DNA of 64,000 nt from Bacteroidota bacterium (lineage in GTDB: Bacteria; Bacteroidota; Bacteroidia; Bacteroidales; JAAUTT01): NCBI GenBank assembly GCA_030706405.1, contig JAUZOO010000003.1:434001-498000 (forward strand). The letters run 5' to 3'. The notes under the pieces were generated by a model that worked only from the letters and a program-made list of their open reading frames with translations, searched no databases and was not told the DNA's origin. The position numbers and the translations under genes are program-made. Positions 40,965-59,305 of this stretch are shown piece after piece; the stretch's first letter is position 1; each line of letters opens with the position of its first letter.

Positions 40965-43343
40965 CTATTTCATCACAATATCCTTTCGCCGCGACTCGGG
41001 CGTTACTTTCAGGTTCTCGACCTTACCGCTTTTCACCGAAAATTCAAGGACAGTATTTCCGGGTGCGTGCAGTTTAACGTTGGCATCCCAGTCGGAAGGC
41101 CAGGCAGGCAACAGGTAAATCTTATCGCCTACAATTTGCATCAACATTTCCTGCAAGGCAATTAAGCCAACGCCGCCCCAGTTGTGGTCCGGAGCCCAGT
41201 CGCCCGATTCCCAGAAAGTAGGGAAGCGTGCCTTTGAGCTTGAAAGTTTTTTAATGATTAGAGCTTTGGCCTCATCAACAAGACCTAAATCGGCGGCATA
41301 AATGGGATCGGGATGCCATGCCTGGATCGCATACTGGTTTTTGTTTTCGGCGCCATAATGCCAGGTATCGATATACAGTTGCAAGTCGGGATGACCAACG
41401 CCAAACAAATGGTAAGGATATACCGGATAGAGCTGCGGAATCTCGGTGTTGACCACCTTCCCGTTCCAGGTTTTAGCCGGAGCCACAACGGTATGTCCGT
41501 TAAGTTCGCGGGTGCATATTTCAGGCAAACGGTCCAACACTGCTTTCCAATATGTGCGTTGTTCGGGCGTTCCGTATTTGGCGGGCAGGGCCAGTAACCC
41601 TGTCAGCACACTTTTCATGGCGGCAATGGTGCTGGTGGAATTGGTGGCGCTCTTATAAGTTTCGAGAGCTGCACCGGGATACATAATCAGCTTGCCGTTG
41701 GCATCGAGCGGGTATCCGTTCAACTTCTTCGACCAATATTGAAAATGCTCATCGTGGAAACGTACGCTGTTATCGATAAGCGACATGTACATGCTGATGT
41801 CGGCGCCGGTATATAGTTCATAATCCAATATCATTTTAGAGAATTCGAGCTGACCGTCGTAATGGTCAACCACCCACATATTGGTCAGGAATCCATAATC
41901 GAGGAACTTCTTTTCATTGCCGTTCACATCTTTTAAAATACGGGTACTCGACGAGTCCGACCGTGGTTTAAGCGTTGAACCACCCCATAGCCGTTCGTAG
42001 GTATGACCGGCAGGCAAGCCAAAGTTCTCAATCTGTTCGGTAAACGAAGCGCCCTCGTGACCCCAATATACTTTGGTACGCAACACGGCATTGCCAAGTG
42101 CGCGACGGTAGAACTCGAACTGCGGTTTCATCATGTCAAAGTCGCCCGATTTAAGCATGGGCCAATAGAGCAACCGCTGGTTTTGCGCGGTAAAGCTTCC
42201 GCCTCCCCAACGGCGGTAATCGGGAGAACTTTTTAATGGCGCAGCGCTCATCAATTCCGAGTCGTAGGTAAAAAGACCTCCGTTAAATTTGGTGGGAAAT
42301 TCGCCATAAGCGTTACATCCCAACTGATAACGGAATACGTTATAGTTGCGGCCGATTTCCCAGCCTTTATCGTTGTCCGCTTTTTTATCGTTGTTGACAT
42401 AGATATAACTGCGTTTCCAGTACTGTGCCCACCACTCCAGATTTTTCGACAATTTTTGCGGAGTGGCTGCCGAAGTTCTTGTGGCCTCTTTTAATCCGGC
42501 CAACCATCCGGCGGCTTCGGGAGCAGACGCGGTGTGAAGTACAATATCAACCTGATGCTTATTGGAAGGTTTTGTGCTTTCGTAAACCCATCCGCGATAT
42601 TTTGTAGAGACGTAAGAGCTGTCAATCGTCCGGGTGAATTTCATATTGCGGGCAATCATCTCTCCGCCAAAAATCAGGTTTTTAAGCGGATTCCACAGCT
42701 GGTCCTTCACGCTCGACAAATGTTGCTGGATAGCTTCTTTATCAAGAACAAGGTCGTTATTTCTGTTCTGATGATACCAAACCAGACCGGAAGAAAGCCT
42801 GTTTACACTATCCTTACGGTTATAAATCGGAAACTTATCGGGCGAAGTAAGATTGAAACTGTAGGCCTGACTGCGTTCCTCGGCCGACAGCATGCGGTCG
42901 TACGTACGCCAGGTTTCAAAAATAGCTTTGGCGCTTAGCTTCTGCCCGCTGTTAACTTCTACGTGGATAACAGGCTTAAATACCTCAACCCATAGCTTTA
43001 CGACGGTATTGTTATCGCCCGAAATCTCGATATAACCCTCATTCAATTTCAGCTCCTGCTTAAACGAGTTTTTGAACGGGTTGGGATACAGCGATAGCCT
43101 TACCCTGCCCAGTTTCAGGAAGGAATTATTTTCATCGAAAGTGCCGCTGCGACTGATGTAAAACAGAATGTCGTTATTTTCGGTCCAAACGTTACAGCCA
43201 ATATCACCGCCCCCCAAAGGCATGGATTCGGACGAATTTTTGCTCTGGCTATTCCAAACCAAGTTGTACTGCGAAATATCCTGTGCCTTTGCAGTGATGC
43301 AAAGTGCCGCAAGAATGAATATTTGAAAAACTAGTTTTTTCAT
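40965..43343 (-). CDS. Secreted DUF5703 protein, GH95/GH65-like glycosidase candidate (paralogue 1)
   Basis: 792 residues from the ATG at 43343, which starts a good signal peptide (MKKLVFQIFILAALCITAKAQ); the frame is open 20 codons upstream. The N-terminal beta-sandwich begins with YNLVWNSQSKNSSESMPLGGGDIGCNVW, like the MPxGNGxxGAxV start of GH95/GH65 proteins. The centre (about 320-680) is helical, fitting an (alpha/alpha)6 barrel: GGGSFTAQNQRLLYWPMLKSGDFD, YWGHEGASFTEQIENFGLP. The end is a small beta domain. About half the residues match the paralogue at 53-55.5 kb, and both end in a near-identical VTPESRR motif. Third gene of an operon with a URO-D protein and another glycosidase-like protein. 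No activity is established. Confidence 0.8.
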   Translation of the reverse strand: MKKLVFQIFILAALCITAKAQDISQYNLVWNSQSKNSSESMPLGGGDIGCNVWTENNDILFYISRSGTFDENNSFLKLGRVRLSLYPNPFKNSFKQELKLNEGYIEISGDNNTVVKLWVEVFKPVIHVEVNSGQKLSAKAIFETWRTYDRMLSAEERSQAYSFNLTSPDKFPIYNRKDSVNRLSSGLVWYHQNRNNDLVLDKEAIQQHLSSVKDQLWNPLKNLIFGGEMIARNMKFTRTIDSSYVSTKYRGWVYESTKPSNKHQVDIVLHTASAPEAAGWLAGLKEATRTSAATPQKLSKNLEWWAQYWKRSYIYVNNDKKADNDKGWEIGRNYNVFRYQLGCNAYGEFPTKFNGGLFTYDSELMSAAPLKSSPDYRRWGGGSFTAQNQRLLYWPMLKSGDFDMMKPQFEFYRRALGNAVLRTKVYWGHEGASFTEQIENFGLPAGHTYERLWGGSTLKPRSDSSSTRILKDVNGNEKKFLDYGFLTNMWVVDHYDGQLEFSKMILDYELYTGADISMYMSLIDNSVRFHDEHFQYWSKKLNGYPLDANGKLIMYPGAALETYKSATNSTSTIAAMKSVLTGLLALPAKYGTPEQRTYWKAVLDRLPEICTRELNGHTVVAPAKTWNGKVVNTEIPQLYPVYPYHLFGVGHPDLQLYIDTWHYGAENKNQYAIQAWHPDPIYAADLGLVDEAKALIIKKLSSSKARFPTFWESGDWAPDHNWGGVGLIALQEMLMQIVGDKIYLLPAWPSDWDANVKLHAPGNTVLEFSVKSGKVENLKVTPESRRKDIVMK

Positions 43344-43412
43344 AGTTGTATTAAATGTTTTGCGCTGGCCTTTAGCGATTATTTTCCAACGGCTAAAGGC
43401 CAAGCTAATTGC

Positions 43413-44489
43413 TCAAAAATTTTTCTTCAAACTCTCAACGGTTTCAAAAATGGTATCGATTTTATCGTCCGGAACAGAATCGTCCATGTTGATGCAACAA
43501 ACGCCCGTCAGATAAGGATTACCGGATTCTGTCACCAGGCGGGTAATAGTTTCGCGGATTTGATCGTTGGTTTGGTGGACAATTTCTACCGGACTAAGCC
43601 TGATGCTGAAAAAAGTGTTGGGAAGATGCTGACGGAGCACTTTCACATCGCCGCCCCAACCGAGGTCGAGATAATCGAGGTGCGGGATTTTGGCAAAGCT
43701 TTCGGCCATTCGGTGCGGATCGGGACCGCAATAATGGATACCAAACGGACGTTTCTTGCTCCATTCAATGTCGAACGGGAGAAGATAGGTTTCGTAATCT
43801 TCGGCCGAAATCATCGTATGCGAGCATTCGGAATGAAGAAATATTGGTTTCTTGAAATGGCGAACACCACGGTTCACGGAAATTGACGAAGTTCCGGTTT
43901 CTGCCACCATCGCGGTGGTGAATTTTTCGATGATGTTGGCAAGCTTTTGAAAATAGACGTTCACTTCGTCGGGAGTAAGCATCATATCCATAAAGATGCT
44001 TTCGCCCCTGAGGTCCATGGCCAGGTTCAGCACGCCTCCCCAGTTGATGTCGCCAGTTAGTCGTCCATGCTTTTTCTTTAGTTCGTCCCAAAGGTTCAGG
44101 GTGCGTTTAAACGCTTCGGATTTAAAAACTTCGTCTTCATTCAGCGAGAGGTCGTCCCGCTTGGCAGAAATTACCTGTGGCGGATGCCCTTCGGTATAAT
44201 TAACTGTGCATCCGAGCATCTCGGAGAGCAGAAATCCTGCTGCCAGGTGTACTGCACCTACTTCGGGACGTTTTTCGTCCTTGTTTTGTCCCATGCCGTA
44301 ACGTCCCCAGCGTTCGTACAAAACTTTTTCCATGTGTTGTTCCTCTTCAACCCGTTTATTGGGATTGAAGAAGAAATCTTTATCGAAGGTTACGCCTTCA
44401 TTTTTATGCCACCACTCTGGCCCAAGTACAATATCGACGGGCAATATCTCCCGGCCAAGCTGATCATTAAATTGATAGTTCATTATCAT
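43413..44489 (-). CDS. URO-D-family corrinoid methyltransferase candidate 1
   Basis: 358 residues (start 44489, or two codons later). Uroporphyrinogen-decarboxylase-type TIM barrel. It is not HemE: it carries the zinc ligand pattern of the methyltransferase branch, H-x-C in FGIHYCGPDPHR (about 250-260) and a later Cys in LTGVCCINMDD (about 330), and has no HemE N-terminal RxPVWxMRQAGR motif. Members with this site activate a methyl acceptor or donor thiol/alkoxide together with a corrinoid protein. The corrinoid protein in this window is 8 kb away on the same strand. It sits between two secreted glycosidase-like genes (15- and 69-bp gaps), an unusual partnership. Confidence 0.8.
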   Translation of the reverse strand: MIMNYQFNDQLGREILPVDIVLGPEWWHKNEGVTFDKDFFFNPNKRVEEEQHMEKVLYERWGRYGMGQNKDEKRPEVGAVHLAAGFLLSEMLGCTVNYTEGHPPQVISAKRDDLSLNEDEVFKSEAFKRTLNLWDELKKKHGRLTGDINWGGVLNLAMDLRGESIFMDMMLTPDEVNVYFQKLANIIEKFTTAMVAETGTSSISVNRGVRHFKKPIFLHSECSHTMISAEDYETYLLPFDIEWSKKRPFGIHYCGPDPHRMAESFAKIPHLDYLDLGWGGDVKVLRQHLPNTFFSIRLSPVEIVHQTNDQIRETITRLVTESGNPYLTGVCCINMDDSVPDDKIDTIFETVESLKKNF

Positions 44490-44504: not shown

Positions 44505-47231
44505 TTAATAAAAAAGCCAGTCCACGCCATCCTTTTGGGTAATTCCGAAACCGGCATCGCGCGGAATTATTTTCTGTGAAGGATCGATAAATCCGAATAC
44601 CAACCCGATTCCTTTGTTCAATTCGAGCGTGTTTTCGCCGGCGCTAAAAGAATAAGTGTGCAGGTTAACCGGAGGCATATCCTGAATATCGATTGCGTTG
44701 GCAATTTTAATCTCGGCCTGGCCGTAATCGTTGGCATGAGCATTGGTTTCGAGGCTTGGCGACTGCATAAACTCCTTGTTGTCAGTAACAAAATAGCCCA
44801 CCAGCACATTTACCGGTTTGTCGTTTTTAAACCGCACCACCGTTGGGGCGTCCTTCTGGTCGCCATAATTAAAGCGGATAAACTGAAGATTTTTAAGCTC
44901 CTCGGCATAATTCTTAATCACAAAATCTTTATCGGAGTAAACCTTCTGGTCTTTCGCAACGGGAACCAGGGTTTGACTTTTATCAAGAAGCTGCACCGGT
45001 ACCGATACAAACGGAGCATTTGTTTTTTGGAGGTTGGTGCCCGGTTTGGCCGTTTTTATCAGATTAATATTCTTCTTGAAGTTTTCCAGCTCATCTTTAT
45101 AAAGAGGAAGCATCTCTTCCCATGTTTTGTACTTTCCGTCGTTACCTCCAATAGGAATACGGCGTTGCTTGGTTTGCATGCTATTAGCATAAAGGTACGA
45201 GTCTTTGGTAAGGTTAACCACCTCTTTATAGTGTTCGAGGCTACGTTCGAGGAATGGAACTGCTTTTTCGAGGTCGGTAATATCCTTCGAATAATTATAC
45301 CGCAAAACGAGCATAGCCGCATTTACCTTGTCGGAGAAGAATTTTGCAATAAGGTTATAGCAATAAATGTCATTTTTAAGACGGGTGAACTCCTCTTTAT
45401 TTTGAGTTATATAAGGAGAAGCTTTATCGATGGCTTCGGAAGCCAACCTGCCATGCTGAACCACTTCGCGGATAATTTGCGGCGGCGTTTCGCCTACGTG
45501 AGGCTTCTTGTTCCATTCTTTTTCGGCATAATCAATCAGAATTTCACCTTCGGGACCGTTCGATGCGTAGAAATCAGGATATATTTTCCATTTTTTTGGA
45601 TTTACCAGCTGACTCATGAACATTCCCAACAAAAGCGTCTGTCGATTTCCGTCGGTAATGCCGAAACGGCGAAGGAGTTTAGGTGCAATTTCGCCGGATT
45701 GGTCGTAAGCCTGTTTGATGTCGAGCCCGTGCTGTCCGCAACCATAAAAATTGCCCAGTTCATTGGTCCAATAGCTATCCTCGGAGTTTTGGTCGCGGTG
45801 ACTGTTCCATGCATAGCGGCTCCAAGCCTGGTACCACATCCAATCGCGGTCAATCTGTAAAAGGCGTGGTGAGACTTTATCGGCAGTGTAGGGCCAATCC
45901 CAGTACGACGCCTGCGGATACAGATGAAGCCCGTTAGCTCCGTGAACTTCGTGCATGGCAATTATACTTTTACGGATGAATTCGGGCGACGCATAACGAA
46001 AAGGCTCGAGGTTTGCCAAAATATGAACGTTTTCGATATGCACCGAACCCAGACTGCTAAGATCTTTATGGATTTTTGACCATGGACCGCGTGGCTCATA
46101 GGTAGTTAGTGACTCGCCGTTGTATTTGTGCATGGTGTAAAGATTTTTATACAATGGGAGCGCTTTAGCCATCACCATCTGAGCATTAGTGTCGTGGGCA
46201 CGTAGCAGTATTGGAGGTTCGTCGGTACGGCCGAGGGCTTTTAACCCGTCTTTAACGCCGGGAATAATGGTTTCGGTAAACCATTGCACATCGTCGTCCC
46301 AGGTGTTCATCGCTTCGCCCAGACAAACCAAAAGCCCAACGTTTGGGTATTTTTCGATGAATGCAGCGATGGATTTGCGGGTGTAATCGGCAATAATCGG
46401 AATGATTGGCCGGTTACGATCCTGCGTTTTCATATGATTATGTTCGGCAAACGGCTTTGATACTATTATATTATAGAACATTTGAATGACAAATATTCCG
46501 CGTTTGTTGGCTTCTTCGGTAAGGAAACCGAATATTTCTTCGTTCTTCTTAAACGTTGCATCATCTACTTCAACGGCATACGGATAATCTTTAAGTTTTA
46601 CCAGCGAGGCAAAGGGATGGCCATTCCAGAGATACAACGAATTCATGCGGTTTTCAACCAACATGTCAAGATATTTAATCCAGAGAGCTTTGTCGTAAAA
46701 CCATGGGAAATTCTCGGGAGTGTATGGATATTCATACACATCGCGTCCCGGAAGATATACGGGTTTCTGAATTCCGACACAGGCGCCCCGTAAAACCATT
46801 TCGGGCTGGTCGGTCATGTTCAGGTTTTCGGGCAGCTTGCCTAGTTTTTTAACCTGATCAGCAATTTCGAGGCAGGCGTATAACGTTCCCGAAGCGTCGG
46901 CTCCTTTTACCACAATAACTTTCGCATTCGATTTAATTGAAAAGCCTTCCTTGCCGGGTTGTTTGTCAAATACCAGTTTATTTTTCTCGGCAACATTTTT
47001 AACCAAAACGTCATTGCTCTCGCCAATTACAATCGACACTCCCGATGATTTGCCGGCTTTATTTGCCAGCACTACTTCATAACCGGCGTTTTTAAGGGCA
47101 GAGGATAGCTTTTCGGTTCCAAACTTAGTCCGTACCGAACATGTGGGAGAGGTTACAATAGTTACCAGGGCTTTTTTTGCCGGCATAAAGGTCTGGAACA
47201 GGATTGTTGCCAGAATGAACAAAGTTTTCAT
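44505..47231 (-). CDS. Secreted glycosidase-like protein (GH20/GH67/GH115-type architecture)
   Basis: 908 residues with a weak signal peptide (MKTLFILATILFQTFMPA). Residues about 20-150 look like the N-terminal domain of GH20/GH67/GH84/GH115 enzymes, ending in DASGTLYACLEIADQVK. A TIM barrel follows (about 170-540): NRMNSLYLWNGHPF, LLVCLGEAMNTW (Glu306 a candidate catalytic acid), ENVHILANLEPFRY, GLHLYPQASYWDWPY. The C-terminal 350 residues are helical then beta-rich. I cannot assign a CAZy family with confidence; an alpha-glucuronidase-like or unclassified family is possible. First gene of the operon, with LacI-type operators upstream. Confidence 0.7.
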   Translation of the reverse strand: MKTLFILATILFQTFMPAKKALVTIVTSPTCSVRTKFGTEKLSSALKNAGYEVVLANKAGKSSGVSIVIGESNDVLVKNVAEKNKLVFDKQPGKEGFSIKSNAKVIVVKGADASGTLYACLEIADQVKKLGKLPENLNMTDQPEMVLRGACVGIQKPVYLPGRDVYEYPYTPENFPWFYDKALWIKYLDMLVENRMNSLYLWNGHPFASLVKLKDYPYAVEVDDATFKKNEEIFGFLTEEANKRGIFVIQMFYNIIVSKPFAEHNHMKTQDRNRPIIPIIADYTRKSIAAFIEKYPNVGLLVCLGEAMNTWDDDVQWFTETIIPGVKDGLKALGRTDEPPILLRAHDTNAQMVMAKALPLYKNLYTMHKYNGESLTTYEPRGPWSKIHKDLSSLGSVHIENVHILANLEPFRYASPEFIRKSIIAMHEVHGANGLHLYPQASYWDWPYTADKVSPRLLQIDRDWMWYQAWSRYAWNSHRDQNSEDSYWTNELGNFYGCGQHGLDIKQAYDQSGEIAPKLLRRFGITDGNRQTLLLGMFMSQLVNPKKWKIYPDFYASNGPEGEILIDYAEKEWNKKPHVGETPPQIIREVVQHGRLASEAIDKASPYITQNKEEFTRLKNDIYCYNLIAKFFSDKVNAAMLVLRYNYSKDITDLEKAVPFLERSLEHYKEVVNLTKDSYLYANSMQTKQRRIPIGGNDGKYKTWEEMLPLYKDELENFKKNINLIKTAKPGTNLQKTNAPFVSVPVQLLDKSQTLVPVAKDQKVYSDKDFVIKNYAEELKNLQFIRFNYGDQKDAPTVVRFKNDKPVNVLVGYFVTDNKEFMQSPSLETNAHANDYGQAEIKIANAIDIQDMPPVNLHTYSFSAGENTLELNKGIGLVFGFIDPSQKIIPRDAGFGITQKDGVDWLFY

Positions 47232-47457: not shown

Positions 47458-47461
47458 AAAA

Positions 47462-47967: not shown

Positions 47968-48396
47968 TTATAATAGCGTTTTTGATTTCAAAGTGTATCT
48001 TTTGGCCAGTGATTGAATGGTTTCTGTAGATACCAGTTTATTAATTGCTTCACGTATCGGGGCATACTGTTCGTGCAGCGGACATGGGTTTTCGCAATCA
48101 CACTGTTTGAGCCCGAAGCCACAACCTGTCAATGTTTTATTGCCTTCAGTCTGCATAATGAGTTCCTCTAGCGGAATATCTTTTTTCCCCTCTTCGAAGT
48201 AAAAGCCTCCGCCTTTCCCTTTAAGCGATGATACCAAGCCTAGTTTCACCATTCGTTGAAGAATTTTGGCTGTATAGAATTGTGGGGCTTCGATTTCCTT
48301 TGCTATTTCTACAATGCCGGGTCTTCGTCCGTTTGTGTTTTGTAATTGAATGTAAACCAGCCCTCTTAGGGCGTATTCGGTTTCTTTATTAAACAT
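47968..48396 (-). CDS. Rrf2-family Fe-S-sensing repressor (NsrR/IscR-like)
   Basis: 142 residues. Winged-helix start MFNKETEYALRGLVYIQLQN, recognition helix EAPQFYTAKILQRMVKLGLVSSLKGKGGGF, and the cluster loop CGFGLKQCDCENPCPLH with several Cys, expected to hold an Fe-S cluster. Divergent from a ScdA/YtfE-type repair gene, with a long palindrome between them, so an NO- or cluster-status-sensing repressor of that gene is most likely. Its own -7 element TAACTTTG is at 48467-48460. Confidence 0.88.
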   Translation of the reverse strand: MFNKETEYALRGLVYIQLQNTNGRRPGIVEIAKEIEAPQFYTAKILQRMVKLGLVSSLKGKGGGFYFEEGKKDIPLEELIMQTEGNKTLTGCGFGLKQCDCENPCPLHEQYAPIREAINKLVSTETIQSLAKRYTLKSKTLL

Positions 48397-48459
48397 TCTG
48401 TTTTATGATTTTATTGATACGATGTAAAGAAATGAATCTTTAGTCTGATTTTGTTTCTG

Positions 48460-48467
48460 CAAAGTTA
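48460..48467 (-). promoter_or_regulatory. -7 element of the rrf2 promoter
   Basis: Minus strand TAACTTTG, exact TAnnTTTG, 64 bp before the start codon. Its -33 region falls in the left arm of the palindrome at 48479. Confidence 0.55.
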
Positions 48468-48478
48468 TAAAAAATAAC

Positions 48479-48514
48479 ATTTTACTAAAAGACCTTTTTA
48501 TCTTTTAGTAAAAT
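48479..48514. promoter_or_regulatory. 28-bp inverted repeat, operator of the Rrf2/ScdA divergon
   Basis: ATTTTACTAAAAGA (48479-48492) and TCTTTTAGTAAAAT (48501-48514) are perfect 14-bp inverted arms with an 8-bp spacer. It overlaps the -33 regions of both divergent promoters. Confidence 0.85.
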
Positions 48515-48518
48515 ATTG

Positions 48519-48526
48519 TACATTTG
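48519..48526 (+). promoter_or_regulatory. -7 element of the ric promoter
   Basis: TACATTTG, exact match, 27 bp before the start codon; the -33 position lies in the inverted repeat. Confidence 0.6.
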
Positions 48527-48552
48527 CATCAGAAATTCCTAATACGAATAAT

Positions 48553-49242
48553 ATGAAAAATTATAAAGACTTGTCACTAGGAGAAATAGTTGCAAACGAT
48601 TTCAGAACTGCTTTGGTGTTTAAAAATGTAGGCATAGACTTTTGTTGTGGAGGTAAAAAATCGTTGCAAGAAGCATGCGATGAAAAAGGATTGAAAATAG
48701 ATGAAATTGCCAATGAGCTGCTCGAACTTCAAGTACAGCCTGCAAATTCTTCCCAAAATTTCAATTCATGGGATTTAGGATTTTTGGCCGATTATATTGT
48801 TAATACACATCATAAGTATGTGTTGAAAAATTTACCGGAGTTGGTTTTCTATACGCAAAAAATAGCTTCGGTTCATGGCGGGCATCATCCCGAACTTTTG
48901 GAAGTAGCAGATTTGTTTTCGAAAATTAACGAAGAATTGCGCCAACATCTTCAAAAAGAAGAAGAAATACTTTTTCCGGCAATTAAATTGGCGTTAATAA
49001 CACCTTCGCTGGAAACAACGAAAACGATCGCATCCGAAATAGAACGGATGAGTACAGAGCATGAGTTTGCCGGAGGTGCAATGGATAAAATTAATGAGTT
49101 GACACATGGTTATACTATTCCAGAAGATGCCTGCAATACCTATACTGTATCTCTGAAGCTATTGCAACAATTTGAAGATGACTTGCATGTACATGTTCAT
49201 CTCGAAAATAATATTTTGTATCCCAAGGCTATGAATCTTTAA
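48553..49242 (+). CDS. ric: Iron-sulfur cluster repair di-iron protein (ScdA/YtfE/RIC type)
   Basis: 229 residues. The N-terminal ScdA_N domain has GIDFCCGGKKSLQEAC (double Cys); a hemerythrin-like four-helix bundle follows with di-iron His/Glu ligands in TEH-type positions: VNTHHKYVLKNLP, GGHHPELLEV, LRQHLQKEEEILFP, STEHEFAGG, HVHLENNILYP. RIC proteins repair Fe-S clusters damaged by NO or oxidants. Next to its Rrf2 repressor and 15 bp before a second hemerythrin-domain gene. Confidence 0.92.
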   Translation: MKNYKDLSLGEIVANDFRTALVFKNVGIDFCCGGKKSLQEACDEKGLKIDEIANELLELQVQPANSSQNFNSWDLGFLADYIVNTHHKYVLKNLPELVFYTQKIASVHGGHHPELLEVADLFSKINEELRQHLQKEEEILFPAIKLALITPSLETTKTIASEIERMSTEHEFAGGAMDKINELTHGYTIPEDACNTYTVSLKLLQQFEDDLHVHVHLENNILYPKAMNL

Positions 49243-49257
49243 TTGAAATATGAAATT

Positions 49258-49797
49258 ATGAGCACAGCAACCGCAAATTTAGAAAACGACCACATTCATA
49301 TTCTTCGTTTAATTGATGTAATGGATTGCATCTCTCATGAATCTGAAGCAAACGTTGAACATTTGGAGGCTATTGTTAACATTATTCGCAATTTTGCCGA
49401 TGGACTTCATCATGCCAAAGAAGAAAATTTACTTTTCCCGAAAATGGTTGAAAAAGGTTTTTCGTTTGAGCAGGGACCTATAGCCGTGATGATGCACGAC
49501 CATGTGCTGGGCAGAAACTTTGTAAAAGGAATGTCCGATAATATTGCGTTATATAAGGCCGGTAATAAGGCTTCGTTAACGGAAGTGTTTCGAAATTTCA
49601 ACGGATATGGTGAATTGTTAAAGGCTCACATTGCAAAAGAAAACAATGTTTTATTCCGTATGGCCGATAAAGTGCTTTCGGGTGACGAACAGCAGGTTCT
49701 ATTAAATCAGTTTCACGAAGAAGAAAAGAAACCGGCGTGCGCGGAAAATAATTGTATTATCCAGATTGACAATCTTGTTAAATTGTATAATCTCTAA
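49258..49797 (+). CDS. Hemerythrin-domain protein
   Basis: 179 residues from the ATG at 49258 (a TTG five codons earlier is less likely). Four-helix bundle with LENDHIHILRLID, FADGLHHAKEENLLFPKMV, MMHDHVLGR and LLKAHIAKENNVLFRMAD supplying the His/Glu di-iron set. The C-terminal ACAENNCI has two Cys. Cotranscribed with the ric gene. Likely binds O2 or NO, or delivers iron for repair. Confidence 0.88.
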   Translation: MSTATANLENDHIHILRLIDVMDCISHESEANVEHLEAIVNIIRNFADGLHHAKEENLLFPKMVEKGFSFEQGPIAVMMHDHVLGRNFVKGMSDNIALYKAGNKASLTEVFRNFNGYGELLKAHIAKENNVLFRMADKVLSGDEQQVLLNQFHEEEKKPACAENNCIIQIDNLVKLYNL

Positions 49798-49863
49798 GAA
49801 GGTTTAGCCAGATAAAATTTCGAGGGCCATTTTTAATGATTGGACTGTTTTATTATGGGAGGT

Positions 49864-49907: not shown

Positions 49908-49910
49908 TAA

Positions 49911-51278: not shown

Positions 51279-52271
51279 TTATTTTATAGCACCAAAAAAA
51301 GCTTCAATATTTTCGACGGGAACGCCCGGAGGGGTGTCGCACCCTGAGGAAATGACAAAGTTTCGGAAGTCTTTTGTTTTTTCGAGCAAGTCGGAAGTCG
51401 CCTGCAATACCGATTGAGATGTGCCCATTTTAAATACGCCAACAGGGTCGAGGTTACCTAATACCAAGATATTAGCAGGTACTTCGTTTAGTACCTGCGT
51501 TATGTCAATTTTATTTCCGAAATGAAGCCCAGCTGCACTGGTATTTACCATGGCCTGTGTTACATGTCCGGTATTGCCACAGTTGTGTAGGATAACCATA
51601 AAGGTTTCGTCCTGATTTTCGTCTACTATCTTTTTGACATAATCAGACGAAAATTGTTGACACATATCTTCGGACAGCATTCCGGCTGCAGGCTCGGCAA
51701 TTAAAACGCCACCAACGCCAGCCTTTTTAAATGCTTTTACATAAAGATTGATGAATTCAGTACATTTTTGCAAAAGCAGTTCTATGGTTTCGGGCTCGAT
51801 GTAAGCGGCGGTCATAATTTCGGTCATATCGAAAAGACGCCCGGCCAACGAAAAGGGCCCAATGCATCCTGCAAAAACCGGAACATTTGTAATATTTTGG
51901 GCGGCTAATGTTGCCGCTTTAAGATATTCGGAAACCCGTCCGGCTTCTAATGTTGGAACATTCAGATTTTGAACACTTTCAAAGTCTGAAACGATTCTAT
52001 CCGAAACGGTTGGAACTTCATGTGGTGCAAAATTGATAGGACTTCCAAAAGCTTCAGCTTCAACGGTTAGATCCATAATCATGGTTGCCGCTATCATCGG
52101 ATAATGTTGTTGCAGGGCTTTTATGGCTTCGAAGTGCGTTTCCCCGTTAGTTACAGCTTCTTGAACATTTTTCCCGATTAAATCGATTCCGGGGTGGGTC
52201 ATTATGGGGAGGGCGGGACGTTTATCCGAAGTTAAGACAGACTCCGCCCATTTGTGCATATTTATTGACAT
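51279..52271 (-). CDS. URO-D-family methyltransferase, MtaA/CmuA-like (candidate 2)
   Basis: 330 residues from the ATG at 52271 (13 in-frame codons lie upstream). Follows the corrinoid gene. The barrel has the methylcobamide:thiol methyltransferase layout: GCIGPFSLAGRLFDMTEI, LIAEPAAGMLSED, zinc ligands H-x-C in LHNCGNTGHV and Cys in SSGCDTPPGVPVENIEAF near the end. In methanogens such proteins move methyl from the corrinoid protein to coenzyme M. Bacteroidota are not known for coenzyme M, so the acceptor must be something else (tetrahydrofolate or an unknown thiol). Convergent with trxB. Confidence 0.85.
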   Translation of the reverse strand: MSINMHKWAESVLTSDKRPALPIMTHPGIDLIGKNVQEAVTNGETHFEAIKALQQHYPMIAATMIMDLTVEAEAFGSPINFAPHEVPTVSDRIVSDFESVQNLNVPTLEAGRVSEYLKAATLAAQNITNVPVFAGCIGPFSLAGRLFDMTEIMTAAYIEPETIELLLQKCTEFINLYVKAFKKAGVGGVLIAEPAAGMLSEDMCQQFSSDYVKKIVDENQDETFMVILHNCGNTGHVTQAMVNTSAAGLHFGNKIDITQVLNEVPANILVLGNLDPVGVFKMGTSQSVLQATSDLLEKTKDFRNFVISSGCDTPPGVPVENIEAFFGAIK

Positions 52272-52352
52272 AATGTTGTTTTTGAGTAGTTTAGAATTGG
52301 ATATGGGCATTAGGAGTTGGGAGTTTTCTTCCGATAACTCCTAATGCTTAAA

Positions 52353-53018
52353 TTATGCTGCACGGCTATTTAAAAATTCGACGGCGTCCTGAGGCGTTTG
52401 TGAGTAATGGGTTGCGCCAATCTTATTTGCAAAATCGGACGAGAGCGGAGCTCCTCCCACGAGTATTGCTTTTTCAGGATATTTGGCATGAATTTCAAGA
52501 ACTGTTTTTTCCATATTAGCCATGGTGGTGGTAAGAAGAGCCGAAAGACCTAAAACACAATCGGGATATTTTTCGATGGCTTCGATAAACTTTTCGGTTT
52601 TTACATCTACTCCAAGGTCAACAACTTCCCAACCAGCACCTTCTACGGTCATGGATACCAGGTTTTTGCCAATGTCGTGCAAGTCGCCGGCAACAGTGCC
52701 AATTACAAACACGCCTTTACGTTTTACCTGGCCTGACGAGAAAAATGGTTTGAGATGAGTCATTGCTGCACTCATGGCTTTAGCCGACATCAGCATCTCT
52801 GGCACAAATGCTTTACCTGCGCTAAATTTTTCACCAATTTTTGCCATTCCAGCAACCAGCGCATTTAAAACATCTTCAGCAGAAATACCGCTATCCAGCG
52901 CTTCTCTGGTGAGCTCATCGGCACCTGTCTGACCTTTCAAAGCCGGGGGGAAAGGACTGGCAAGATTGATTTTACCACGTTCAACACATTCTTCCAGTTT
53001 TACCAATACTTCGTTCAT
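52353..53018 (-). CDS. Corrinoid-binding methyl carrier protein (MtaC/MtvC-like)
   Basis: 221 residues. A helical cap domain (about 1-90) is followed by a B12-binding Rossmann domain with D-x-H-x2-G in GDLHDIGKNLVSM (about 110-122), S-x-L in LGLSALLTT and GG in LVGGAPLSS, the base-off/His-on pattern. It carries a methyl group between a substrate methyltransferase and a second methyltransferase such as the MtaA-like protein encoded 81 bp downstream. No RamA/RACo-type reductive activator is in the window. It has an AraC-regulon box 75 bp upstream of its start. Confidence 0.92.
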   Translation of the reverse strand: MNEVLVKLEECVERGKINLASPFPPALKGQTGADELTREALDSGISAEDVLNALVAGMAKIGEKFSAGKAFVPEMLMSAKAMSAAMTHLKPFFSSGQVKRKGVFVIGTVAGDLHDIGKNLVSMTVEGAGWEVVDLGVDVKTEKFIEAIEKYPDCVLGLSALLTTTMANMEKTVLEIHAKYPEKAILVGGAPLSSDFANKIGATHYSQTPQDAVEFLNSRAA

Positions 53019-53196: not shown

Positions 53197-55518
53197 TTAT
53201 TGCATCTCGACAATATCTGTTCTGCGGGATTCGGGAGTGACTTTCAGGTTAGTGATTTTCCCATTAATCAGGGAGCCCTCGACTGTAGTGTTATAAGGTG
53301 CGTGTAATTTAAAGGTCACATCCCATTTTTTGGGCCATGCGGGGAAAAGAAAAATTTTCCGGCCGTCGGTTTGCATGAGCATTTCCTGAAGACCAATCAT
53401 TCCGCTTCCTCCCCAGTTATGATCAGGAACCCAATCGCGCCCCGGGCCCCAGAATGTAGGGAAACGGCGAGGCGAATCCTGTAATTTCTTAATGGCAATG
53501 TCGGCTGCTTCGTCGGTAAGGCCGAGCCGGGCGCAGAAAATACCGTCCTGATTCCAGCTTACATAATCGCGACTCTTTATAATTTGAGGATCGTATTTCC
53601 AGGTGTTTATAGCAACGTCCAGATCTGGCTTTCCGATCCCATAAATTCCGTAAGGGAAAACCGGGTATAACTGCGGCTTTTCATCGTTATTGATTCGCTC
53701 CCAGGTCTTTGCCGGAGCAATCATTTTGTGTCCATCTATCTCGCGAAAACTAAGTGGGGGAATCCGTTGTAAAAGAGCTTTCCATTGCTCGCGTTTTTCG
53801 GCTGAGGCATATGTATCGGGCAGTTCGAGCATTCGTATTAAAACCGTTTTTAGTCCGGAAATAGTGGGCACTGCGTTGGTGGCCATTTTATATGTTTCGC
53901 AGGCCGTTCCCGGATATAAAACCAAGTGACCGTTTTCGTCGAGTGCTTTTGGATCCCGCATTTTAGCAAGGTATTGGTAATGTTCATCAAAAAATACTAC
54001 GGAGCTTTCGATCAGGGGCATGTATTTGCTGATGTCTTCGCCGGTAAATTGTTGAAGGTCGAGAATCATCAGGCAAAATTCCAAAACAGTGTCATAATAA
54101 TAGTCAATCCAGGCGTTGTATTGTTCTCCCTTATCGAACGTTGCCGGACGTTTCCATCCATATTCGAACGCAACGGGCAGTCCAAAGCTTTCTATCTGTT
54201 CGCAAAACGAAGCTCCTTTATGTCCCCAGTATGCCTTGGTTCGTAGTTCTACATTTTTTAAGGCACGCAGGTAGAAATTAAATTGTGAAGGCATCATCTC
54301 AAAATCGCCGCTTTTTAACATCGGCCAATACACTAATCGTTGGTTTTGAGCCGTAGCGCTGCCTCCTCCCCAACAACGAAAATCGGGAGAGAATGGATAA
54401 TTGGCACGAGTTAAAGAGGGGTCGAACGTGAAAAGTCCCCCGTTAAACTTTGTAGGGAAATTGCCAAAGGCATTGCATCCTAATTGGTAGCGGAATAATT
54501 GGTAGTTGCGTCCAACCTGCCATTCGGGCGATTTAGGCTCGGCTTTATCGGGGTTGATGAATATGTAGCTTCGGTCCCAAAAAGCTTGCCACCATTCTTT
54601 GGTTTTGATCCATGCGGTTTTTTGCGATAATCTGGAATCAGAAATTAATTTGTTTAGTCCGGTAAGCCAGTTTTCATAAGTGGTTGGCTGGGCCTGATGA
54701 ACAACAATTTGTAAGGATTGCTTTCGAACAGGTGTAGCAGATTTCAATTGCCAGGCGGTGTAGTCGGTGTCGAGATATTTTCCAGTAACGGTTCCTTCGG
54801 GCACCATGTTTTGCCCGAACATCATTCCTCCAAAAATCATTCCGGCCAGCGGGTTCCAAAGTTGAGCCTTAATGCTGTCCAGTCCCTGTTGTTTTACGGT
54901 TAAATCGAATACGGTTTCGTTTTGGTTGCGGTGAAAAAATAAGACATTATTATTATTGAACGAAATTTCGTCCTTATGCACTATGGCATTAACCGGTGCT
55001 CCGCTATATGCCCTGAATGCATGGGTTTCGACTTTGTTGGTTACTTCGCGGTCGGCTACCCGCCAGCTTTCGTAAGCCGCTTTAACGCTGACCGGCTCGT
55101 TGCTGTCGATGTTAACATTAACTACCGGGCGAAACACGTCCACCCAAACGTTGATGATTACTTTATGTTTGCTTTTAACGCCCGAAATTTCGATGTATCC
55201 TTCCTTGAGTTTAAGTTCCTGCTTGAACGAAGAGCCTGCATCGAAAGGGTTTGGCAATAATTTGATACGAATCCTGCCCAATTTTGGGAACATGTTATTC
55301 TCGTCAAAAGTTCCACTGCGGGATATGTAAAATAACAACTCTCCATTTTCGACCCAAACGTTGCACCCAATGTCTCCACCGCCTACAGGCATCGATTCGG
55401 AAACGTTTTTGCTTTGTGATGTCCAGGACACATTGTAGGACGCCAACGGTTGGCCCTGGCAAACAACTGTATTTGCGAGTACAGATAGTCCGAAAATAAA
55501 TGTTCTTATGATGTTCAT
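53197..55518 (-). CDS. Secreted DUF5703 protein, glycosidase candidate (paralogue 2)
   Basis: 773 residues from the ATG at 55518 (five codons upstream are also open). A signal sequence (MNIIRTFIFGLSVLANTVVCQ) precedes the same architecture as the 41-43.3 kb protein: NVSWTSQSKNVSESMPVGGGDIGCNVW start, helical barrel with CWGGGSATAQNQRLVYWPMLKSGDFE and YWGHKGASFCEQIESFGLP, end NLKVTPESRRTD. It is the first gene of a transcription unit; box 2 lies 74 bp before it. It may be followed by the corrinoid and MtaA-like genes, which have their own box 1. Confidence 0.8.
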   Translation of the reverse strand: MNIIRTFIFGLSVLANTVVCQGQPLASYNVSWTSQSKNVSESMPVGGGDIGCNVWVENGELLFYISRSGTFDENNMFPKLGRIRIKLLPNPFDAGSSFKQELKLKEGYIEISGVKSKHKVIINVWVDVFRPVVNVNIDSNEPVSVKAAYESWRVADREVTNKVETHAFRAYSGAPVNAIVHKDEISFNNNNVLFFHRNQNETVFDLTVKQQGLDSIKAQLWNPLAGMIFGGMMFGQNMVPEGTVTGKYLDTDYTAWQLKSATPVRKQSLQIVVHQAQPTTYENWLTGLNKLISDSRLSQKTAWIKTKEWWQAFWDRSYIFINPDKAEPKSPEWQVGRNYQLFRYQLGCNAFGNFPTKFNGGLFTFDPSLTRANYPFSPDFRCWGGGSATAQNQRLVYWPMLKSGDFEMMPSQFNFYLRALKNVELRTKAYWGHKGASFCEQIESFGLPVAFEYGWKRPATFDKGEQYNAWIDYYYDTVLEFCLMILDLQQFTGEDISKYMPLIESSVVFFDEHYQYLAKMRDPKALDENGHLVLYPGTACETYKMATNAVPTISGLKTVLIRMLELPDTYASAEKREQWKALLQRIPPLSFREIDGHKMIAPAKTWERINNDEKPQLYPVFPYGIYGIGKPDLDVAINTWKYDPQIIKSRDYVSWNQDGIFCARLGLTDEAADIAIKKLQDSPRRFPTFWGPGRDWVPDHNWGGSGMIGLQEMLMQTDGRKIFLFPAWPKKWDVTFKLHAPYNTTVEGSLINGKITNLKVTPESRRTDIVEMQ

Positions 55519-55592
55519 CGTATTTAAACTCATCGTAATAAAAAAACGGGGAATAATGCCTGGGATTCTATCAAAAATCTGGCCAAGAAAAT

Positions 55593-55672: not shown

Positions 55673-56548
55673 TCAGAATATTCCCGACTGATTTTTGCGA
55701 TACGCCAACGGAGTTGTACCTGTAACGGTTTTAAATATCCGGTTAAAATACGAAGCACTGTTAAAGCCGGATTTTTCAAGAATCTCTTTTAACGATAAAT
55801 CAGTAGTAACCAGTAATAACTGGGCTTTTTCTATTCTTTTGAGGTTAATATAGTCGAGCGGCGATTGGCCTGTGGCTTTTTTAAATGCCCTTGTAAAATG
55901 GTCGCCCGAGAGGCAGGCTTTTAAGGCTAGTTCTTTGATCGATATTTCTCTATCGATGTTTTGCCTGATAAACGTAAGGATATGCCTAAACCGGTTATGA
56001 GGCTCTATCAGCGGTTTATTGTTTGACTGGCCGGGGCTGAAAAAGCGGGAAATAAGTTGATAGATGATTCCGCTAGTCTCAAAATAATGAGCGATGGACT
56101 GATATTTTACGCCCCGGTTTAACCATGCTTTTTTTTGATACAACGCCGGGTCTGATACGCGCAGGCCGGTTTCGGGGTTTAGTTCCAGCAGTCGTTCAAA
56201 CAGCCGCATGTCATTTTCGGTAGCTTTTACGCGGTTTATTGCCGGAAACAGGTCGTAAATGTTCAATCCTTCGCTGAGGTCGATGGTGAAATGCAGATAA
56301 TATTGTTCCAAAAAATTAGAACAGGTATAACTGCAGGTTACAAAACTCGGAATAAGGTACAAATACCCGGGTTCGAGAAGTGTTTTCTGATTGTCGGGGA
56401 ATATATAGCCCTCGCCCTCTGTGATAAGATAAATACGCGAGAACGGACTGGTTAAATCACAGTAATGCCACGATGTGTCGAGCGTACATTTATCGGCATT
56501 CAGTAATGTAATCTGAGTTCCCAGTGGGGTATTAAATTGTGCTGTCAT
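55673..56548 (-). CDS. AraC-family transcriptional regulator
   Basis: 291 residues. A cupin-like sensory domain (about 1-150; ITEGEGYIFPDNQKTLLEPGYLYLIPSF) is followed by a double helix-turn-helix (about 195-285: ISIKELALKACLSGDHFTRAFKKATGQSPLDYINLKRIEKAQ and LKEILEKSGFNSASYFNRIFKTVTGTTPLAYRK). Typical sugar-sensing AraC activator. It lies between boxes 2 and 3, with box 3 just 19 bp upstream of its start, so it probably regulates itself and the neighbouring operons. Confidence 0.92.
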   Translation of the reverse strand: MTAQFNTPLGTQITLLNADKCTLDTSWHYCDLTSPFSRIYLITEGEGYIFPDNQKTLLEPGYLYLIPSFVTCSYTCSNFLEQYYLHFTIDLSEGLNIYDLFPAINRVKATENDMRLFERLLELNPETGLRVSDPALYQKKAWLNRGVKYQSIAHYFETSGIIYQLISRFFSPGQSNNKPLIEPHNRFRHILTFIRQNIDREISIKELALKACLSGDHFTRAFKKATGQSPLDYINLKRIEKAQLLLVTTDLSLKEILEKSGFNSASYFNRIFKTVTGTTPLAYRKNQSGIF

Positions 56549-56624: not shown

Positions 56625-56652
56625 TTTTATTTACAATTATTAACAACTATCT

Positions 56653-57687
56653 ATGACACATAAAGAACGATTTTTTGCAACTATTTCACGGCAACCGGTC
56701 GACAGGCCGGCTTCCTGGCTTGGATTACCTGATACCAATGCGTTTCCCGGATTATTTGAGTATTTCGGCGTAAATTCCGTTGAAGAATTAAAAACTAAAA
56801 TTGACGATGACGTTTGGCATATCGACGTTCCTTATCATTATCCGCCACACAACCACATTGGCTGTTCATTAAACTTTGCCAAGAAAACGACAGGAGGTTC
56901 CAACGAGGAACGGACGCTCACTGCTCCCGGGTTCTTCGAGAACATCACCGATCTCTCGTATATCGATAAATTCGATTGGCCAGATCCAGTGAAATGTATC
57001 GATGCTGAAGAATCGTTACGCCGCGCCAAAGCAATTTCGCCCGATTACGTCCGGATGGGTATTATGTGGTCGGCTCATTTCCAGGATACCTTCTCCGCTT
57101 TTGGCATGGAAAATTCGCTCATCACAATGATGATGGCTCCTGAAATGTTTGAGGCTGTAAACAAACGTATTGTTGACTTTTATCTTCGTGCCAACGAGTA
57201 TTTTTTTGAAGCCACGAAAGGCTACCTCGACGCCGTATTAATTGGCAACGACTACGGCAGCCAATCCGGGCTGATGATCGATCCCGATTCGCTGCGGACA
57301 TTTGCGGCTCCAGGCACCAAGGTGTTGATAGAGCAGGCCAAGAGTTACGGATTAACGGTAATGCACCATTCCTGCGGGTCGATTTTTCCGATTGTAGGTG
57401 ATATATTTAATTGGGGTGCCGACATTGTGCATCCTATTCAGGCTTTAGCCAAGGATATGGAACCTCTAAAACTCAAAGATGAATATGGCTCTCAGGGTGC
57501 TTTCTGCGGGGGAATCGATGCTCAAAACCTGTTGGTAAACGGCACACCTGAGCAAGTTGCTCAAAAGGTTCGGGAACTGAAACGAATTTTCCCGACAGGG
57601 CTTGTGTTCTCTCCCAGTCACGAAGCTATTTTGCCGGATATTCCTCCGGCAAACATTGAAGCACTGTTTAAAACTGTTAAAGAATAA
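56653..57687 (+). CDS. URO-D-family corrinoid methyltransferase candidate 3
   Basis: 344 residues; the layout is like substrate:corrinoid methyltransferases of the MtvB/URO-D group. It starts TTHKERFFATISRQPVDRPASW-like (the RPVDRPP-type N-terminus of the family). Zinc ligands: H-x-C in MHHSCGSIFPIVGD and Cys in AFCGGIDAQNLL near residue 290. An aspartate-rich active site NDYGSQSGLMIDPDS is present. It heads the operon with rhaM and rhaT. The absence of HemE motifs argues against heme synthesis. Substrate unknown; the operon suggests a rhamnose derivative. Confidence 0.85.
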   Translation: MTHKERFFATISRQPVDRPASWLGLPDTNAFPGLFEYFGVNSVEELKTKIDDDVWHIDVPYHYPPHNHIGCSLNFAKKTTGGSNEERTLTAPGFFENITDLSYIDKFDWPDPVKCIDAEESLRRAKAISPDYVRMGIMWSAHFQDTFSAFGMENSLITMMMAPEMFEAVNKRIVDFYLRANEYFFEATKGYLDAVLIGNDYGSQSGLMIDPDSLRTFAAPGTKVLIEQAKSYGLTVMHHSCGSIFPIVGDIFNWGADIVHPIQALAKDMEPLKLKDEYGSQGAFCGGIDAQNLLVNGTPEQVAQKVRELKRIFPTGLVFSPSHEAILPDIPPANIEALFKTVKE

Positions 57688-57694
57688 GCGTCAA

Positions 57695-57790: not shown

Positions 57791-57807
57791 GCTCTTAAAG
57801 CCATCAC

Positions 57808-58137
57808 ATGAAACGATTCGGACAAATGATAAAGCTGAAACCCGAGGGGGCAGCCGAATATAAACGACTTCACATGACCGAAAATATCTGGCCGGGAGTT
57901 AACGAGATGATCAAAAAATGCAACATCGCTCGTTATTCTATCTATTGCAAAGACGATTTTCTGTTTGCCTATTTCGAATATACCGGCATTAATTTCGAAG
58001 CCGATATGGCGATGATGGCAGCCGACCCGCTTACTCAAAAATGGTGGGATACGGTAAAGCCTTTGATGCAACCTCTCGACACCATTAAACCCGACGAGTT
58101 CTGGGCCGATATGGACGAGATTTATCACTTGGACTAA
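57808..58137 (+). CDS. rhaM: L-rhamnose mutarotase
   Basis: 109 residues. MKRFGQMIKLKPEGAAEYKRLHMTENIWPGV carries the His and the IWP motif of RhaM, and TQKWWDTVKPLMQPL is the usual C-terminal part. Interconverts alpha- and beta-L-rhamnopyranose (or a close sugar such as fucose or lyxose). With rhaT downstream it points to L-rhamnose-type sugar use. Isomerase and kinase genes are not in the window. Confidence 0.9.
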   Translation: MKRFGQMIKLKPEGAAEYKRLHMTENIWPGVNEMIKKCNIARYSIYCKDDFLFAYFEYTGINFEADMAMMAADPLTQKWWDTVKPLMQPLDTIKPDEFWADMDEIYHLD

Positions 58138-58231
58138 ACGAGCCAGGCCACATTAGCCGTTGGCCAATAACCAACAGCTCACAGTCTTTTACACTACATT
58201 TAGTTACTTAATTATCTTACTACATTACAAC

Positions 58232-59305
58232 ATGATAACACCAAACCCTCTCATTGGCACCGGGCTTCACGCATTAGGCGGAATCTCGGCTTCCAGCTGT
58301 TATTTACCTTCAAATAAAACACAAAAATGGTCGTGGGGAACATTCTGGTTGGTACAGGCATCGTTCGCATGGATTTTAATGCCCATACTTTTTGGCATGC
58401 TTACAGTTCCAGACTTCTTCTCCATCCTGGGCCGGGCTCCATTGCATGCCGTTGTTTGGGCATTCTTTTTTGGTGCAGTCTATGGTTTTGGCGGTTTGTC
58501 ATTCGGACTTGCCATCAAACACATCGGCTATTCGCTAACCTACACCATCTCCATTGGTATATCGGCGGTTTTGGGTACGCTTATTCCATTAATGATTTTC
58601 GGGGGTATCGATACTTATTTTTTTAGGCCTGGAGGAGGCATTGTGCTTACCGGGATGATCGTTTCTATAGCCGGTGTAACCTTATGCGGGTTGGCCGGAT
58701 TTAAAAAGGAAAAGGATATCATCGCCATGCAAGGCGGGTCGACAAATTTTAATATGATAAAAGGCATGACGTTGGCCATCATCGGCGGGGTCTTGTCCGG
58801 AATTTTTAATGTATCGCTCGAATTTGGCCAACCCATTGCCGACCTCGCCGCACAAAACGGAGCTGGTCAATTCCAGGGAAATGCCAAAATGATTGTATCT
58901 ACTGCAGGTTGTTTCATGGTGAACCTTGTTTGGTTTGTAGTAGCCGGAATCAGGCAAAATACACTCAAAGAATTTACATTGAAATCGGGGCTCACCATTG
59001 GCGAACTGAGCCGTAACACGTTATGGTCGGCATTTGCAGGATTGCTCTGGTTCGGTCAGTTCTTCTTTTACGGTTTAGGCCATGTTAAAATGGGCCATTT
59101 TCAGTTTGCCAGCTGGGTATTGCACATGAGCATGCTCATCTTTTTCAGTTATATCATTGGCGTTATTATGAAGGAATGGAAAAGTGTCAGCCGGAAAACG
59201 TATGTAACGCTCGTCATTGCCCTGCTCGTACTCGTGAGCTCATTTGTGATTACGGCTTACGGAAGTATTTTGGGAGAAGAAATTATGAAAACGGCTGCCC
59301 GATGA
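58232..59305 (+). CDS. rhaT: L-rhamnose/proton symporter
   Basis: 357 residues from the ATG at 58232; a longer frame upstream (from 58160) is not supported because MITPNPLIGTGLHALGGISASSCYLP matches the RhaT N-terminus. Ten transmembrane helices with the KKxxKWSWxTxW-type motif (NKTQKWSWGTFW). Imports L-rhamnose or a related deoxysugar with protons across the inner membrane. Same operon as URO-D and rhaM, gap about 94 bp. Ends 92 bp before array B. Confidence 0.92.
   Translation: MITPNPLIGTGLHALGGISASSCYLPSNKTQKWSWGTFWLVQASFAWILMPILFGMLTVPDFFSILGRAPLHAVVWAFFFGAVYGFGGLSFGLAIKHIGYSLTYTISIGISAVLGTLIPLMIFGGIDTYFFRPGGGIVLTGMIVSIAGVTLCGLAGFKKEKDIIAMQGGSTNFNMIKGMTLAIIGGVLSGIFNVSLEFGQPIADLAAQNGAGQFQGNAKMIVSTAGCFMVNLVWFVVAGIRQNTLKEFTLKSGLTIGELSRNTLWSAFAGLLWFGQFFFYGLGHVKMGHFQFASWVLHMSMLIFFSYIIGVIMKEWKSVSRKTYVTLVIALLVLVSSFVITAYGSILGEEIMKTAAR

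Follow-up and report, generated by a model that had tools for sequence, protein, structure and literature searches.

The window analysed here is a stretch of 64,000 nucleotides from a Bacteroidota bacterium (genome G000, contig C15, positions 434001–498000; the genome comprises 4.93 Mb in 21 contigs and is 99.7% complete). Between positions 40965 and 59305 of the window, genes for glycosidases lie among genes for corrinoid-dependent methyl transfer and sugar uptake, and in our view this locus may encode the core of an O-demethylation system for methylated sugars of rhamnogalacturonan II (RG-II). The genes, with the names used below (GH, glycoside hydrolase family), are as follows.

40965–43403, minus strand: GH139a, a DUF5703 protein and probable 2-O-methyl-α-L-fucosidase (Pfam DUF5703_N, 351.6 bits; PDB entry 9HYQ, 684.9 bits in two stretches)
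43413–44489, minus strand: UROD43, a tentative, divergent URO-D-like protein with the pattern HYC...CC
44505–47231, minus strand: GH138, an α-D-galacturonidase
51279–52310, minus strand: UROD51, an MtaA-like URO-D methyltransferase with a His-Cys-Cys site (Pfam, 194.6 bits)
52353–53018, minus strand: COR, a stand-alone corrinoid methyl carrier (Pfam B12-binding_2 and B12-binding)
53197–55533, minus strand: GH139b, a DUF5703 protein and probable 2-O-methyl-α-L-fucosidase (Pfam, 392.7 bits; 9HYQ, 880.6 bits)
55673–56548, minus strand: AraC-family regulator, divergent from UROD56 (Pfam HTH_AraC/HTH_18)
56653–57687, plus strand: UROD56, with a His-Cys...His site, a candidate sugar:corrinoid methyltransferase (Pfam URO-D, 74 bits)
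57808–58137, plus strand: RhaM-type sugar mutarotase (Pfam rhaM, 101.3 bits)
58160–59305, plus strand: RhaT-family sugar importer (Pfam RhaT, 182.5 bits)

The genes form three sets. GH138, UROD43 and GH139a share the minus strand with intergenic gaps of only 15 and 9 bases, and for this reason they probably constitute a single operon. The second set, also on the minus strand, comprises the AraC regulator, GH139b, COR and UROD51. UROD56, rhaM and RhaT make up the third, which runs on the plus strand divergently from the AraC gene. The corrinoid protein, the two DUF5703 proteins, the regulator and the rhaM and RhaT genes had all been named in an initial annotation made from the sequence alone, and the Pfam matches bear these names out.

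The DUF5703 proteins can be identified further. The two solved structures of this family, 9HYQ and 9HMB, are both listed in a paper on GH139, the 2-O-methyl-α-L-fucosidases of RG-II (PMC12282258), and we equate DUF5703 with GH139 because of this; a literature search on the word DUF5703 itself found no paper. We have taken 9HYQ to be BT0984, as the chain numbering fits that of the paper with an offset of one (the chain being one lower). Homology to 9HYQ spans nearly the full length, and in the printed alignments, read by eye, both copies keep the acid E561, the base N412, Q411, E641, D723, N729, W403, W490 and W683, among them the residues around the O2-methyl. BT0984 is reported to act on the 2-O-methyl fucoside and to leave the plain fucoside uncut, and molecular dynamics simulations locate the O2-methyl group between Q411, E561 and E641, which form its pocket (PMC12282258). 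Judged by these residues, both window proteins are probable 2-O-methyl-α-L-fucosidases. The main text of that paper does not contain the string 'demethyl' and so leaves aside what becomes of the methyl group.

The third glycosidase had initially been described as GH20/67-like, an identity that we reject in favour of GH138: the protein exceeds the curated NCBIfam cut-off (NF049878, 1533.7 bits versus 1300), and it matches the PDB structure of BPa0997 over its full length with 1111.8 bits. The activity name α-D-galacturonidase is that given by NF049878. We take GH138 to have a role in RG-II degradation.

COR carries the motif DxHxxG, as do all 106 proteins labelled COR, the window protein included. 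Six proteins of the whole genome match PF01208 (URO-D), one of them with a HemE-like score. Three of the other five lie together with the corrinoid gene within 14.3 kb, an arrangement equalled by none of 200,000 random placements, and the clustering of URO-D and corrinoid genes is more than chance.

The three URO-D proteins proposed initially, each said to carry an H-x-C...C pattern, do not stand on an equal footing. UROD51 is the clearest, with H242, C244 and C324 invariant in 13 aligned sequences. Its best solved relative, found with the 13-sequence profile, is the methylcobalamin:coenzyme M methyltransferase of M. mazei (4AY7, 80.1 bits), and it remains below the NCBIfam cut-off for MtaA and soluble coenzyme M methyltransferases (TIGR01463, 126.2 versus 235.4). 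UROD56 is also a URO-D protein, but it departs from the pattern: H239-x-C241 is present and His323 occupies the position of the last cysteine. His239 and His323 are found in 13 of 13 aligned sequences and Cys241 in 12 (the exception, an aspartate, is in L127; L numbers denote loci). The AlphaFold2 (AF2) model of UROD56 has the URO-D fold (mean predicted local distance difference test score, pLDDT, 85.5); the M. mazei enzyme ranks first in Foldseek, and in VIA-align it is tied with HemE near Z 27. UROD43 keeps the pattern, but at 23.3 bits it lies just below the Pfam URO-D cut-off of 23.9. A close relative (473 bits) adjoins a corrinoid gene in L204 and has no Pfam match at E 0.001; a two-sequence profile of UROD43 and this relative reaches other URO-D proteins at E 1e-7.

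According to a preprint on this superfamily, a His-Cys-Cys site marks the S-methyltransferases, and in O-type enzymes one or both cysteines are replaced by carboxylates or non-coordinating residues, histidine not being among the examples given there (PMC10418091). The superfamily includes known O-demethylases, of which MtvB, OdmB and VdmB act on aryl ethers (PMC13222342). Since UROD51 fits the His-Cys-Cys rule and UROD56 does not, the active-site residues suggest that UROD56 would handle the sugar and UROD51 the thiol.

The initial annotation had listed a reductive activator and genes for rhamnose isomerase and kinase as missing. The sugar genes are present elsewhere in the genome, where rhaA stands with an FGGY kinase and a class II aldolase, likely a rhaB-A-D set; a full L-fucose isomerase and a second match to its C-domain are also encoded. 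An activator of the RACo/RamA family is rejected for this genome, as PF14574 has no match in G000; PF12225 has none there either. Of 60 genomes searched, a set that includes G000, six have PF14574, and all six also have a close COR relative. The place of this activator appears to be taken by a stand-alone methionine-synthase activation-domain protein, encoded on contig C16 beside a homocysteine S-methyltransferase (L162). The genome has three proteins with PF02607, namely COR, a MerR-type regulator and a MetH-sized open reading frame (ORF) of 1230 amino acids with PF02965.

Around the L162 pair lie GH141, two GH2, GH31, a GFO/IDH oxidoreductase, an SSF transporter and a protein of 354 amino acids, which has no Pfam match and is distantly related to UROD43 (E 5e-6). 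Counterparts of genes from both places are contiguous in G023, where L044 contains GH31, the 354-residue protein, SSF, COR, UROD51, the activation-domain protein, GH141, a rhamnosidase-like gene and GH138, and because of this contiguity the C16 locus and the window are probably parts of the same pathway. The GH139 gene of G023 lies about 32 kb from this set (L168), and its neighbours there are genes for RhaT, rhaA, an FGGY kinase and a class II aldolase.

Relatives of UROD56 that are 59–65% identical occur in eight other loci, in five of which the gene is flanked by rhaM and/or RhaT. The rhaM gene stands beside UROD56 in L086, L198 (SSF-UROD56-rhaM) and L201, and RhaT accompanies UROD56 in L086, L200 and L202, the last two with the order AraC-UROD56-RhaT. 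L201, a contig of 4 kb, reads rhaM-UROD56-GH139, where the GH139 gene runs off the end of the contig and owes its name to a phmmer match (705 bits to GH139b). L086 is the richest, with GH138, an esterase, UROD56, rhaM, RhaT, COR, URO-D, homocysteine methyltransferase, CobW, a MetH-type activase, GH78 and GH106. In L207 a UROD56-like gene stands beside rhaM within GH106-activation-domain protein-UROD51-COR-GH29-UROD56-like-rhaM-RhaT-AraC, and L204 reads GH138-GH2-UROD43-COR. Relatives of the AraC regulator (235–264 bits) accompany UROD56 or its distant relative in L200, L202 and L207. In L199 UROD51 and UROD56 have another URO-D gene and an MFS carrier between them, and in L087 UROD56 occurs with COR, URO-D and CobW and with neither rhaM nor RhaT. 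The URO-D protein of L086 at 10664–12283 has 539 amino acids and a C-terminal thioredoxin domain; relatives of the same length adjoin COR in L074, L087 and L102.

For COR we examined the best 80 of 123 confirmed places. Most of these carry titles that name Bacteroidota or one of its orders, and a few belong by title to Spirochaetes, Fibrobacteria, Calditrichaceae, Ignavibacteriales, Rhodothermales or other groups. The 76 loci with a labelled COR gene were used for counting (L066, L111, L117 and L139 were left out). Within 8 kb of COR, phmmer labels show URO-D in 31 loci, a pterin-binding enzyme in 30, an activation-domain protein in 29, methylenetetrahydrofolate reductase in 24, RACo in 21, MtaB in 13, CobW in 12 and homocysteine S-methyltransferase in six. 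All six homocysteine enzymes are accompanied by the activation-domain protein, five by URO-D and none by the pterin enzyme, while the pterin enzyme is accompanied by methylenetetrahydrofolate reductase in 22 of its 30 loci. That the homocysteine and pterin enzymes never occur together, and that the latter so often has the reductase beside it, suggests two alternative methyl sinks among these loci.

Two further kinds of COR locus were noted. L083, L084, L090, L109 and L115 have a conserved set of COR, the pterin-binding enzyme, methylenetetrahydrofolate reductase and the activation-domain protein, with no labelled URO-D or MtaB as methyl donor enzyme; the set stands beside an FGGY-type sugar kinase in L083 and a weakly xylose-isomerase-like protein in L090. 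L053, L092, L108, L123 and L137 combine COR, the pterin-binding enzyme and the reductase with formate-tetrahydrofolate ligase and RACo, and in some cases a formate transporter, with no recognised methyl donor enzyme; L053 and L123 are apparently one and the same contig.

Co-occurrence of the system with sugar breakdown in related genomes, whose absence would have spoken against the initial proposal, was counted in 393 genomes of the order, drawn evenly from the larger group. GH139 was counted only above the DUF5703 cut-off (five genomes whose only matches fell below it were scored as having no GH139), and COR at E ≤ 1e-55, a threshold set after viewing an earlier COR search. GH139 is present in 31 genomes and COR in 43, and 18 have both compared with 3.4 expected (Fisher p 1e-11, ignoring relatedness). 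Relatedness was handled in part by removing the genus of G000 (GH139 28, COR 39, both 15 versus 2.8 expected; p 1e-9) and by counting at the level of 206 genera (both in 13 versus 2.8 expected; p 2e-8), although these p values again ignore relatedness. As a control for genome size, among the 22 of the first 60 genomes of at least 3.8 Mb all five GH139 genomes are among the nine with COR (p 0.005). UROD56 occurs in seven of the 393 genomes, five of which have GH139 and five COR. Linked sets of these genes are likewise found in other genera.

Taken together, a corrinoid methyltransferase system in this Bacteroidota genome is well supported, and its tie to RG-II-type sugar breakdown is supported by linkage and co-occurrence. 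We put at roughly 55% the probability that the locus encodes the core of a corrinoid-dependent O-demethylation system for methylated RG-II sugars, chiefly 2-O-methyl-L-fucose; other methylated RG-II sugars are perhaps also substrates. The most likely reading of the sequences is demethylation of 2-O-methyl-L-fucose with a thiol as acceptor. The secreted GH139 enzymes would free the methylated sugar, with GH138 acting on another side chain, the RhaT-family carrier would import it and the RhaM-type mutarotase would equilibrate its anomers. A URO-D methyltransferase, most likely UROD56 since it has no thiol-type His-Cys-Cys site, would then move the methyl group to Co(I) of COR, leaving L-fucose for the fucose isomerase of the genome. 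UROD51, whose His-Cys-Cys site of thiol methyltransferases fits a methyl-accepting role, and/or the homocysteine S-methyltransferase of the second locus would take the methyl off COR to give methionine or another methyl thioether, the thiol probably being homocysteine. Action of a URO-D protein on a thiol, which the initial annotation had listed among refuting outcomes, is of partial relevance here. After oxidation of the cobalt, COR would be restored by the stand-alone activation-domain protein, presumably by the mechanism operating in MetH. The initial proposal of outside cleavage, import and corrinoid O-demethylation is supported in its core by gene identities and conserved linkage. Its rhamnoside substrate is less likely than 2-O-methyl-L-fucose, the residue for which the GH139 enzyme studied biochemically is specific (PMC12282258).

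Several observations weigh against this interpretation. The window enzymes resemble the known GH139 enzymes (BT0984; structures 9HYQ and 9HMB) in near-full-length homology and in the catalytic and O2-methyl pocket residues, but neither keeps W162 of the tryptophan triad, at a position in a gapped stretch where copy b has Gly and copy a Leu; the complete triad W162/W490/W403 is present in just over 40% of the family (PMC12282258). The family names RhaM and RhaT refer to rhamnose, and UROD43 is a URO-D protein only tentatively. COR is not sugar-specific by itself, pairing with MtaB in 13 and with the pterin-binding enzyme in 30 of the 76 loci. At the threshold used, 13 of the 31 GH139 genomes are without COR, and some of these 13 carry GH139-esterase-GH106 with no labelled methyltransferase gene within the 20 kb fetched (L218, L219 and L231); and G001, of the same genus and 97% complete, has COR-UROD51 and no GH139 match. 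In L200 and L207 it is GH29 fucosidases, and not GH139, that are found near the UROD56-type gene, and in L203 UROD56 stands amid genes for DNA/RNA repair and modification with no adjoining sugar genes. Finally, the sugar genes near URO-D-type COR loci (group one, 23 of the 76) and near MtaB/pterin-type loci (group two, 35; 18 fell in neither) differed only modestly, with no clear enrichment in group one, and we dropped this comparison as support. It used Pfam on 86 versus 112 neighbouring proteins of 250–1299 amino acids within 7 kb, the 112 (from 34 loci) being a random subset of the 161 in group two; among the 25 families shown first, out of 109 and 117, are five Sugar_tr, three GH127 and others versus four GH116, three GH3 and five FGGY_N.

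A broader version of the proposal is conceivable, although we judge it less probable than not. The genome may have a split methionine synthase, with separate homocysteine, corrinoid and activation-domain proteins, fed by RG-II sugar ethers rather than by folate through a different URO-D-type enzyme for each sugar. UROD56 would serve 2-O-methyl-L-fucose of chain B, and UROD43 or its 354-residue relative, together with the apparently cytosolic GH31, would serve 2-O-methyl-D-xylose, a residue of chain A of RG-II. If true, methylated sugars would have a route that needs no oxygen and conserves the methyl group. The likeness to MetH is that the homocysteine-binding, corrinoid-binding and activation domains are all present as separate genes; the difference is that the domains are split over genes and loci and that URO-D proteins stand in place of the folate domain of MetH.

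The first rival to demethylation of RG-II sugars is that the corrinoid system demethylates another pectin or plant compound, for example methanol derived from methyl esters, or an aromatic methyl ether, and shares only the habitat of an RG-II degrader. The company that COR keeps with MtaB and pterin-binding methyltransferases elsewhere, the COR-UROD51 pair of G001 and the aryl O-demethylases MtvB, OdmB and VdmB (PMC13222342) are all compatible with this, but we consider it unlikely. No ORF of the window is labelled MtaB (a negative that does not extend to the whole genome); among the PF02607 proteins of the genome, once the MetH-sized ORF and the MerR-type regulator are set aside, only COR remains, and it lies beside UROD51; and linkage among GH139, rhaM, RhaT and UROD56 recurs in several genera. 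An accidental meeting of a plain rhamnose or fucose uptake set with methyltransferase genes, UROD56 having an unrelated role such as decarboxylation, is improbable: the RhaT and rhaM names, the rhaB-A-D and fucose isomerase genes and the inclusion of HemE among URO-D folds would agree with it, but UROD56 recurs with rhaM and/or RhaT in five of eight other loci, a UROD56-like gene does so with both in L207, and BT0984 is inactive on plain fucoside (PMC12282258). The least probable rival is that the URO-D and corrinoid genes serve methyl-sulfur or methyl-selenium metabolism beside sugar genes by chance, for although the invariant His-Cys-Cys of UROD51, typical of S-methyltransferases (PMC10418091), and its closeness to the coenzyme M enzyme would suit such a function, the last cysteine of UROD56 is histidine in 13 of 13 sequences, PF14574 is absent from the genome, sugar rather than sulfur genes recur near UROD56 and three GH138/GH139-type glycosidases flank the URO-D and corrinoid genes.

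Several known systems are close to the candidate O-demethylation locus. Like the corrinoid O-demethylases MtvABC, OdmABC, MtoBCD and MtaABC, it would combine a URO-D-superfamily methyltransferase, a corrinoid carrier, a separate acceptor enzyme and an activator. It differs from the systems of acetogens and methanogens in being sugar-linked and found in Bacteroidota, in having a methionine-synthase-type activator in place of RACo and in probably passing the methyl group to a thiol instead of to folate. Type 1 mlp clusters are defined by at least two Mlps, a corrinoid protein and Ram encoded in the same direction (Kountz and Balskus, PMC10418091). Like them, the window has an MtaA-like URO-D protein and a corrinoid protein and, within the stretch, no gene recognised as a folate methylase; unlike them it has no Ram gene or RACo-family match, its genes lie on both strands, glycosidases replace the sulfur and selenium genes and one URO-D protein is without His-Cys-Cys. 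In marine, aerobic bacteria a cytochrome P450 demethylates 6-O-methyl-D-galactose (Reisky 2018, cited in PMC10033563 and PMC12316285). There, too, an O-methyl group is removed from a monosaccharide after polysaccharide breakdown, but by a monooxygenase that gives formaldehyde, whereas the system proposed here would be oxygen-independent and the methyl group would be kept.

A literature search of open-licence papers, which was not exhaustive, found no system of this kind. The locus supplies named candidate genes for oxygen-free sugar demethylation and suggests a link between vitamin B12 and pectin breakdown in which the cell retains the methyl group instead of losing it as formaldehyde. Among the best 80 of the 123 COR places, many Bacteroidota contigs carry related sets of corrinoid methyltransferase genes.

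Between the first and second gene sets, positions 47968–51151 encode an Rrf2 regulator, a ScdA_N/hemerythrin protein, a second hemerythrin and a thioredoxin reductase. We take these to have a role in nitrosative stress or iron-sulfur repair and have not counted them as parts of the system. The described stretch is flanked by an inverted repeat of 155 bases, 91% complementary, at 40576–40730 and 59501–59655 (18.8 kb apart), which may delimit an island or a segment capable of inversion. The repeat belongs to arrays of a unit of about 20 bases containing GCAGG, with runs of seven and four motifs; no runs of that kind were found in seven other stretches of the genome (about 129 kb), and three-motif runs are present in L137 and L140 of other genomes. 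Outside the described genes, the window also encodes a one-carbon enzyme, glutamate formiminotransferase (FTCD), at 27192–28220.

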